Of a stretch of DNA of 64,000 nt, positions 2,217 through 45,257 are shown piece by piece. The stretch is from Deltaproteobacteria bacterium. GTDB lineage: Bacteria; Desulfobacterota; Anaeroferrophillalia; Anaeroferrophillales; Tharpellaceae. The position numbers and the translations under genes are program-made. Under the pieces are notes generated by a model, which did no database searches, had not been told where the DNA came from, and saw only the letters and a list, made by a program, of their open reading frames with translations. The stretch's first letter is position 1, and each line of letters starts with the position of its first letter. The stretch lies in NCBI GenBank assembly GCA_016938065.1, contig JAFGVI010000118.1:40374-104373 (forward strand), in the 5' to 3' direction.

Positions 2217-3628
2217 CTGTTTTTTAACCAGCGGGCATTAGCCAGACCGAGCTGTTTAACCTTGTAGTTCATCACCCGCTTGCTGATGCCCAGCATCACC
2301 GCGGCATCCTTCTGCACCCAGTTACAGGCTTTCAGGGTTTCCACAATCAGGGAACGTTCCATCTCTTCGAGTTTTAATCCCTGCAGGGGAATTGCGAAAA
2401 GCGGATCAGGCTCGTCCTCACCTTCCTGACAGATCCCCTTCAGAAAGAGCAGATCCGACTTGACAATCTCGGAACCGTCACTCATCAGAACGGCCCGTTC
2501 AATACAGTTCTGCAGCTCCCGAACATTGCCCGGCCAGTGATGCTGCTGCAGAAAACGGGCCGCCTCCGGATGCAGGGTGGCGGTGTTCTTTTTCAGATCG
2601 GCAGCAAACTTACGAATAAAGGACTCGGCCAAAAGCGGAATATCTTCACGCCTTTCACGCAGCGGCGGCAGGTGAACGTTGATAACATTGATCCGATAGA
2701 AAAGATCTTCACGAAAATCGCCTTCGCGAATGATTTTGGCCAGATCTTTATTGGAGGCCGAGATAATGCGGGCATCAACCTTAATGGTTTTGTCGCCGCC
2801 TAAACGCTCAAACTCTTTCTCCTGCAGCACCCGCAGCAGTTTAGCCTGAGTCGCAAGGCTCATATCACCAATTTCATCCAGAAAGAGGGTCCCCCGGTCG
2901 GCCTGCTCAAAGCGCCCGATACGCTGGCGGCTGGCTCCGGTGTAGGCCCCTTTTTCATGACCGAAGAGTTCACTCTCTAAAAGATTATCATGCAGAGCGG
3001 CGCAGTTGACCTTGATAAAACTTTTCGCCGCCCGGGGGCTGCTGTAGTGAATCGCCCCGGCAACCAGCTCTTTACCGGTGCCGGTCTCGCCCGAAATCAG
3101 AATACTGGCATTACTGTTCGCAACCCGGCCGAGCAGAGCAAAAACCTGCTTGATCGCCGGGCTCTCACCGATAAAATTTTCAAACCGATAAATGATATTG
3201 CGCTCATGGCGCAGATAGGTAAGTTCATGCTCATAAAATCTGACTTTCAGAGCCTTTTCCAGCCGCAGACAGAGTTCATCAAGACCATAGGGACGCTGAA
3301 TAAAATCTGCAGCGCCGGCCCGCATCACCGCGGCGACATCATCAACCGAACTGGCGGCAGCCATGAGCACGACCACCGTGGAAGAGAGAATCGCCTCCTG
3401 GCCGAGAAGAAATTCGAAACCGCAGCCCGCAAGCTGACTGACCTCAGCCAACAGGAGCTGATAGGATGATTTATTAAGCAGAGCCCGGGCCTGGTCTCCA
3501 TTGTCAACCTCATCAACATGGTAATCCAGCCCCCGCAAAGCGGCGGCGGTCTCCTGCCGGATCCGGCTTTTACGATCGACGATAAGAATACGGCCGGCTT
3601 GGCCTACGGCCAGATCTTCTACTCCCAC
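2213..3628 (-). CDS. Sigma54-dependent NtrC-family regulator with degenerate receiver domain
   Basis: Receiver-like N-terminus, AAA+ domain ([22 protein letters not shown]), Fis-type HTH; canonical phospho-acceptor Asp replaced by Glu (LLLAEVS). Confidence 0.9.
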
Positions 3629-5169
3629 TCGATTGTCCCCGGCGGTTTGGAGGAGATGTCGTAAACTACGCGATTGACTCCTCTGACTTCATTGATGATG
3701 CGATTCGCGATCCGCCCTAAAAGATCATAGGGCATTCGGAACCAGTCTGCCGTCATGCCATCGACACTGTTGACCGCCCGTAAGGCGATAACCTTTTCAT
3801 AGGTTCGTTCATCCCCCATGACACCAACCGTTTTTACCGGAATCAGAACCGCAAAAGCCTGCCAGATTTCATGATAGAGTCCGGCCTTACGGATCTCTTC
3901 AATAAAAATGGTGTCCGCCTGACGCAGGATATCAAGCCGACCCTGAGTAATTTCGCCAATTACGCGGATAGCCAGCCCCGGCCCGGGAAAAGGATGCCGA
4001 TCCACCACCTCTGAAGGAAGACCAAGTTCCCGGCCAACCTCGCGCACTTCATCTTTAAAAAGCTCCCGTAAAGGTTCAACCAGTTCAAGCTTCATATGTT
4101 CGGGCAAGCCCCCGACATTATGATGACTTTTGATCACCGCCGAAGGCCCCTTAAAAGAGACACTCTCAATCACATCCGGATAGAGGGTCCCCTGGGCGAG
4201 AAAATCAACCCCTTCGAGCAACCCGGCCTGTTCTTCAAAAACCCGGATAAACTCATTACCGATAATCTTACGCTTTTTTTCCGGGTCCGTGACCCCGGCC
4301 AGGAGATCGAGAAAGGTTTGACTGGCATCGACATAGCGCAGATTGATCTGAAAATGACGCCCAAACATCGCCTGCACCTGCTCCGCTTCATCCTGACGCA
4401 AGACCCCGTTATTGACAAAGATGCAGGTCAGCTGGTCGCCTAAAGCCCGGTGCAGCAACAGAGCTGCGACCGAAGAGTCGACCCCGCCGCTCAAACCTAA
4501 AATAACTTTGCCGGAATCGACCTGAGCCCGGATTGCAGCAATCGTGGTCTCGATAAAAGAGTGCATATTCCAGAGACCGTGGCAGTCACAGATGGCAAAG
4601 AGAAAATTTTTCAGAATCTGCCGCCCCGGTTTGGTGTGGACCACCTCGGGATGAAACTGCAGACCCCAGGCCTTTCTCTGAGAATCGGCAAAAGCGGCAA
4701 TCGCGGCATTCTCCGTCGCCCCGATCGCGGTAAAACCGTCCGGCAGAGAGAGTACCTTATCGCCATGACTCATCCAGACCTGCTCCGGAAAATGCAGGCC
4801 CTCCCACAAGGGATCGGCCTGAAGAGAGTTCAGACTGGCCATGCCGAATTCGCGCTGTACGGAGTGGCCCACCACTCCCCCTAACTGTTCGGCAATCTCC
4901 TGCATGCCATAACAGATGCCGAGAATCGGCACCTTGAGCGCGAAAACCCCTTTATCGACATGAGGCGCGCAGCTGCCGTAGGTACTGGAGGGCCCGCCGG
5001 AGAAAATAATCCCGCGCGGTGAAAACTCCTTAATCCGTTCTAAAGAGAGATTATAGGGATGAATCTCACAATAAACCTTTTGTTCCCGCACCCGCCGGGC
5101 AATCAGTTGCGTATATTGAGAACCAAAATCAAGAATGAGGATCTTCTCCTCATGAATATCAGGCTGCAT
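3619..5169 (-). CDS. guaA: GMP synthase (glutamine-hydrolysing)
   Basis: GATase motif GICYGMQ, ATP-PPase SGGVDSSV, C-terminal KPPGTIEWE. Confidence 0.97.
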
Positions 5170-43535: not shown

Positions 43536-43785
43536 GAGATCACCTGTTCTGGAAACTGCGTCGCAAGAAACTATGTAAAGATAACGTATTCACTATCAAT
43601 AAAATAGAGATTCGACAGTAAATATCATTCCCTGAACTTAAATTAACTCAGCACCTCTGCATTGTTAGAATATACAACAATCTCTAAAAAAAGCAATCAG
43701 CCAAAAGTATGAAAATTATAGTAAAAAACTGATCTGTTTACACTATTTTCATACTGATAAAGCACTAGCTCTATTCGACCATTAA

Positions 43786-44208
43786 TCAGCTGAACTCCCG
43801 GGCTACCAGCTTAAAAATAGTATTGTCGGCACTCTTCATTAAAACCTCTCGCTCATCTGCAGGCAAAAAAGAGTGAGAAAAGGCCTGCTTGATAATTGCC
43901 AGTGCATCCCAAAGCGTAATCCCGCCAACCAGGCGGGAGGCAAGAAGATACTCACCGGTCAATGTGGTTTTACTGATCCCCGGATTATCGGTGCAGATGG
44001 TTAACGGCAGACCCATCTGCCAAAGCTTCTGCAAGGGATAAGGTGGATAATCAGCAAGCGCCGCCATGGCCGCCGCTCTCTTTAAACGTTCATTCGCCCC
44101 TTTTTCATTATCCCACCGATCGCTGATCACAACGAAACCGAATCGGGGCTGAAGCAAAGGCAAATTTCCCATTAAACTTTCCGTTCCGATGCAGAAACAC
44201 CGTATCAA
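43786..44208 (-). pseudogene. C-terminal fragment of an adenosine/AMP deaminase-like protein
   Basis: LADYPPYPLQKLWQMGLPLTICTDNPGISKTTLTGEYLLASRLVGGITLWDALAIIKQAF; N-terminal metal-binding HxH half absent. Confidence 0.75.
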
Positions 44209-44389
44209 TCTGATGCCGCATCAAAAGATTGATCGCGGCACTGGTAATCTCAATACGCCCGATAATCACCAGCTGCTCGGTCTTAAAAGGAAAGATCGTC
44301 TTTAAAAGATCATCACCTTTACGCAACTGCAGAACGTCACCGTTTTTTACCAGGCGCCCATAATCTGAAACAACATAAATGATCGACAC
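44108..44389 (-). pseudogene. N-terminal fragment of a Cas1-like integrase
   Basis: GTG start; SIIYVVSDYGRLVKNGDVLQLRKGDDLLKTIFPFKTEQLVIIGRIEITSAAINLLMRHQIDTVFLHRNGKFNGKF matches the Cas1 N-terminal pattern; truncated before the catalytic domain. Confidence 0.75.
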
Positions 44390-44398
44390 AGTTTTACC

Positions 44399-44566
44399 CT
44401 AACCTAAAAGATCAATATTATCGCAAAAATCATCGTCATCGAGCAAAAATAAAGGCTCGTCATCCAGCAGCAAGAGAATAGCCGCTATCAGCTCATCCCG
44501 GCATAAATCAACACCCCTCGCCACTCCGACATCACTGCCAATCTGAAGAGATCCCCGGTCTAACAT
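44399..44566 (-). CDS. Hypothetical 55-aa ORF just upstream of the Cas1-like fragment
   Basis: MLDRGSLQIGSDVGVARGVDLCRDELIAAILLLLDDEPLFLLDDDDFCDNIDLLG; 9 nt before the Cas1-like start; possibly itself a fragment. Confidence 0.4.
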   Translation of the reverse strand: MLDRGSLQIGSDVGVARGVDLCRDELIAAILLLLDDEPLFLLDDDDFCDNIDLLG

Positions 44567-45257
44567 CTTCTCAAGCTACTTTCGCTAATCCAGGACCATC
44601 TTTTTTTCCACTCACGCTCCCACCCCTTGCAAAGCAGCTCCAGACTTATCTCTAAACCATTATTTTTTTTAAACTTCAGCGGGCCAATAGACCGCCCTCA
44701 CTTATCACCTGTTAAGCAAGTTGAAAGAAGTAAATGAATTGTTTCGTCTCAATCCTTTTTATCAGAAGGCTTTTTTCATCCGGTTATATCGTAAACACCC
44801 CTATCCACTCCATTAACCACAAATCACCATACTATACAAAACCTATTTTGCAGTATTTCGTGACAATCCATCAAAAAAAACCGGTCGGCCCTGTGGAACC
44901 CGCCGTTACCGGCCTTAAAACCAGCTTCCTGATAATCATGTAACCGCGATTATGCGAAGGATCTGTTGTTTGAAATATAGGGGTTGCAATATGGTACATA
45001 TCATTCTTTTGTCAAAAAAATGGGCCTGAGCCGGTTAAGCGGAAAAAAGATAAGCATGTTTCATCCGAAGGGGCATTTTTTTCATATACTCCCCCACATC
45101 TCTAAAATTAATTACTAATTTCAATCACTTACCAACATAATTCCGGACATCATGCCAGCCGTGACGTATACATTGCACAAAAAACATATACATCGCGACC
45201 TTTTTAAAACACTTCTCTTTACCATAAACATACGGCTATAGCATGTAAATTCAATAA

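Follow-up and report, generated by a model that had tools for sequence, protein, structure and literature searches.

A cas1-cad1 relic as the probable remnant of a type III-A CRISPR-Cas locus in a Tharpellaceae bacterium

Introduction

How did the beginning of a cas1 gene come to run into the end of an adenosine-deaminase-like gene in a Tharpellaceae genome, and is the join the trace of a lost CRISPR-Cas locus, a new association of two protein families or an error of assembly? The window, i.e. the whole stretch of DNA analyzed here (64,000 nucleotides of contig JAFGVI010000118.1), had been read before from its letters alone, and that earlier note proposed either the scar of a type III locus encoding a CARF-adenosine deaminase (Cad1) or a novel cas1-ADA association. 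Cad1 is an ATP-converting effector. It has been described as a CARF-adenosine deaminase effector of type III-A CRISPR-Cas (PMC11645235, PMC12669630), and Baca et al. reported that type III systems, chiefly of subtypes A and B, are present in the genomes that carry >70% of cad1 homologues (PMC11645235). Our analyses support the scar, and we put at about 0.92 the probability that the window holds the dead stub of a type III-A CRISPR locus with Cad1, with the 5' part of cas1 brought up against the 3' part of cad1 by deletions.

Results

The minus strand of the window carries, in this order, a CRISPR repeat (44780-44746), a gap, the cas1 remnant (44389-44147) and cad1 pieces reaching a stop at 43786. 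The features below are described relative to L002, an intact locus of the same genus.

44746-44780, minus strand: single CRISPR repeat, on the strand of cas1; matches the array repeat of L002, L061 and L062 at 34 of 35 positions
44390-44745, minus strand: gap between repeat and cas1, about 355 bp, no detectable homologue in profile and tblastx searches
44147-44389, minus strand: cas1 remnant, codons 1-81, GTG start (Pfam Cas_Cas1, identity to L002, dN/dS)
44108-44146, minus strand: 3' tail of the Cas1 ORF, out-of-frame cad1 until the stop (junction alignments)
44060-44152, minus strand: cad1 piece A (RFGFVVISDRWDNEKG...), about codons 502-534 of L002 cad1 (nucleotide alignment; ends approximate to a few bases)
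43786-44040, minus strand: cad1 piece B, about codons 656-741, with TDN motif and native stop (PADLOC CARF5--CARF_ADA, 5e-32)
43717-45070, no strand: segment breaking synteny (comparison with relatives; ends approximate)

The ORF at 44389-44108 (minus strand) had been taken for the first 75-80 or so residues of Cas1, and profile searches together with alignment to L002 bear this out for 81 residues, the last 12 or so being out-of-frame cad1 and not Cas1. Residues 5-77 of the ORF match positions 2-74 of the 283 in Pfam Cas_Cas1 (E 4e-11), and matches to the PADLOC (2.7e-12) and NCBIfam (1e-11) Cas1 profiles likewise span, at their best, the N-terminal ~75 residues; the C-terminal catalytic domain is missing. 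Over these 81 aa the fragment is 94% identical to the intact 358-aa Cas1 of L002 (aa 1-81), and a scan of the genome collection returned two metagenome-assembled genomes that hold Cas1 relatives at 95%; the same stub was found in none of the other genomes searched. Against relatives, dN was 0.027 and dS 0.86-1.6. A search of the window's own assembly for a second Cas1 returned none, 44147-44389 being the sole Cas1 place.

For the deaminase ORF piece (43786-44208, minus strand), the best profile is PADLOC CARF5--CARF_ADA (Cad1, PDLC01908; positions 519-603 of 605), which at 5e-32 lies >20 orders of magnitude ahead of the metabolic ADA profiles, generic and metabolic matches being weak (A_deaminase, 2e-8; metabolic adenosine deaminase, 1e-8). 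Piece B shares 78% aa identity with L002 Cad1 658-740, and its TDN motif aligns with that of intact Cad1 and is the Asp-to-Asn form reported for this family (PMC12669630). For the intact relative, matches to solved Cad1 structures reach about 1e-39. What had been described as one ADA-like C-terminal third in another frame is indeed homologous to a deaminase but consists of two cad1 pieces joined in frame. Piece A, offset by one base from the cas1 frame, has a nucleotide identity of 60-65% to L002, L003 and L037 at the collinear place, compared with 51% for the best of 200 shuffles. The cad1 fragment shows a dN of 0.16-0.20 with near-saturated dS. The N-terminal CARF domain, which binds cyclic oligoadenylate, is absent from the window, the CARF half of Cad1 has no match in the window's own genome, and a search of that assembly for a second Cad1 found only the remnant in the window.

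The junctions were placed by piecewise alignment to L002, one-pass local DNA alignment having given spurious small blocks. At the first, cas1 codon 81 meets cad1 codon ~502 one base out of frame at about 44152-44147, which falls within the range of 44085-44165 named in the earlier note and narrows it; the deletion amounts to about 2.9 kb (cas1 codon 82 to cad1 ~502). The earlier note was right to propose an internal deletion but missed a second one, which removed ~0.37 kb (cad1 ~535-655) and left cad1 codons ~534 and ~656 adjoining in frame. The deleted stretches comprise the remainder of cas1, both cas2 genes, the CARF domain and all of the HxH, HAGE and second-His metal or catalytic residues (HCH 328-330, H578-E581 and H602 in L002 Cad1). 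Judged from what is encoded, the Cas1 and Cad1 fragments are predicted to be non-functional, neither being able to work.

The statement that no array is visible in the window was wrong by one repeat (44746-44780), which differs from the repeat of the relatives at 1 of 35 positions (chance expectation 0.00). This single copy, the only one in the window and in the whole genome, does not make an array. The repeat-to-cas1 gap measures about 64 bp in L002. In the window it holds a 55-aa Asp-rich ORF (44566-44399, minus strand) with no Pfam, PADLOC or NCBIfam family and no convincing tblastx match among the fetched loci. A search upstream of the surviving repeat for the leader of the relatives' array (L061/L062) did not find it.

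Intact counterparts, for which the earlier note had suggested a search, exist in the same genus in the order array-cas1-cas2-cas2'-cad1. L002 (G012:C145) carries on one strand a 17-repeat array, cas1 (358 aa), cas2 (91 aa), cas2' (95 aa) and cad1 (741 aa). L003 (G011:C59) has the same genes with a Schlafen-AlbA_2 protein separating cas2' from cad1 and a CopG/BrnA-like antitoxin pair separating a degenerate repeat from cas1, and in G001 (L036) cas2-cas2'-cad1 follow a cas1 end at the contig edge; cas2-cas2'-cad1 are consecutive in the collinear relatives L002/L039 (G012), L003 and L036. The window shares order, strand and repeat with the half-loci of L002 and L003, both of which, unlike the window, keep intact cas1, cas2, cas2' and cad1, L003 with its inserts and with a lone degenerate repeat adjacent to cas1. 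In L003 this repeat lies by a cas1 start partly duplicated around the antitoxin-like insert (403-1202), and a second copy of the cas2' end comes after the AlbA_2 insert that precedes cad1 (2850-4872).

The Cas10 complex genes are retained in two relatives of the genus. Contigs L052 and L053 carry cas10-csm2-csm3-csm4, L053 also csm5; L062 (G011:C357) carries csm4-csm5-Card1-CARF5 (NE0113) and ends in four copies of the L002 array repeat, and L061 (G001:C178) carries Card1-CARF5 and ends in two. Because L061 and L062 break at the array, the ancestral order would be cas10-csm2-5, Card1 (a CARF nuclease), the CARF5 protein, leader, array, cas1, cas2, cas2' and cad1, and because a csm contig ends in the same repeat, the ancestor was probably an ordinary type III-A locus. 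The window's own genome has 0 hits to the RAMP subunits Csm3/Csm5 (versus 2 in G011 and 5 in G012), and its Cas10/Csm1 palm2 hits stay at <=31 bits, as in genomes that lack RAMP genes altogether, and were taken for GGDEF proteins; the true Cas10 of G011 and G012 reaches 105-114 bits. As the assembly is 89% complete, csm and cas10 genes could sit in the missing part.

A tandem cas2 pair after cas1 (L002 2430-2989, the two genes ~40% identical to each other) also occurs in L004-L009, L011, L012, L016-L018 and L020, across several phyla. This distribution suggests that Cas2 may form a conserved heteromeric pair in the Cas1 lineage concerned; no paper on tandem cas2 genes came up in a literature search.

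Other members of the genus also show partial loci. In G001:C57 (L119 5372-6037), a cas2a/cas2b fusion, made within a GFGLRVQKS stretch common to both genes, is followed by cad1 pieces 356-446 and 617-666, with stops. As in the window, the same operon decayed through internal deletions, but the cas2a/cas2b fusion is retained and the cad1 pieces and deletions are others; since the deletions differ, the events appear to be independent. The same genome also keeps an intact cad1. Searches of G015 (94% complete) matched neither cas1 nor Cas10, and its intact-looking cad1 (L037 6154-8635, G015:C211), which follows an apparently frameshifted cas2', is possibly an orphan.

The relic occupies a rearrangement point of its lineage. 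Upstream of PilZ-epimerase, the remaining members of the genus that were examined have a single conserved neighbourhood in common, from which the window departs at ~43716, the PilZ promoter side being shared with relatives up to that point; from ~45071, the window shares a cytochrome block with G006:C5, which in G006 adjoins a second PilZ gene. Segment 43717-45070 is thus the breakpoint between the PilZ-epimerase and cytochrome blocks, each of which has a PilZ gene beside it in G006. In the relatives, the cas1-cad1 halves lie beside differing genes, so the loci seem to move.

We retrieved 13 further Cad1 loci, more distant but of the same phylum, together with flanking DNA, a contig end truncating some of them. 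The fetched stretch contains cas1, usually with cas2, in 6/13, and cas1 directly adjoins cad1 in two (G041, G236); a spirochaete locus (L008) reads cad1-cas10-csm...cas1-cas2-cas2'. Across many genera, type III loci commonly have cas1/cas2 in the vicinity of Cad1, which rules out the novel cas1-ADA association or fusion that the earlier note had offered as its second option.

Discussion

Like known type III-A systems with Cad1, the window has members of the cas1 and cad1 families and a CRISPR repeat, and its relatives keep cas10-csm2-5 and Cad1; it differs in having stubs only, with no CARF domain, Cas10 or csm gene and one repeat. Starting from the order reconstructed above, the interference genes would have been lost in this lineage, the array would have collapsed down to one repeat, the ~2.9-kb deletion would have joined cas1 to cad1 out of frame, and the ~0.37-kb in-frame deletion would have taken out the deaminase metal-site stretch, leaving stubs presumably capable of neither spacer integration nor a cyclic-oligoadenylate response. 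Neither fragment shows a clear dN/dS excess over intact-intact pairs, and the substitutions are mostly synonymous, which points toward purifying selection until recently and hence a recent loss.

The same absence of an amino-acid excess would fit an artefact as well as a very recent loss, as the fragments evolve like live genes, the source is a metagenome assembly and contigs of this genus are frequently broken at arrays; the organism might therefore have an intact locus, with a false cas1/cad1 join made by the assembler or by a strain mixture. Such an assembly error is unlikely, however, because it would require mistakes at both deletions, which are separate and lie in unique coding DNA, and again at the collapsed array; the lost portions of cas1 and cad1 turn up at no other place in an assembly that also lacks RAMP genes, and G001 holds a comparable relic of natural origin. 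It is very improbable that the stubs are still in use, e.g. the 93-aa Cas1 N-terminal domain as a DNA-binding or regulatory peptide: the frame is open and its divergence mostly synonymous, but it is without catalytic part, Cas2 or array, a recent deletion predicts the same substitution pattern, and no other genome searched has this stub. Chance neighbourhood of a stray cas1 fragment and the end of a metabolic adenosine deaminase gene (add) is hardly tenable, since, although generic ADA profiles match too, the margin of the CARF_ADA profile and the TDN form speak for Cad1, and an ordinary add gene is refuted by that profile together with the sisters carrying cas1 and then cad1 in the same order on one strand.

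From an evolutionary point of view, the dead type III-A stub raises the question of whether the genus loses this locus repeatedly and piecemeal (G000, G001:C57, G015), the deaminase core being removed by selection and not by drift, perhaps because an ATP-draining Cad1 is costly without a Cas10 partner or array; we regard this as doubtful. The relic is real but unremarkable, a decayed example of an already known system and not a new kind. It documents the apparently recent disappearance of a type III CRISPR-Cad1 system whose decay steps can be ordered because intact relatives are at hand, and it shows that a Cas1/Cad1 remnant of fewer than 100 residues is recognizable from raw sequence.
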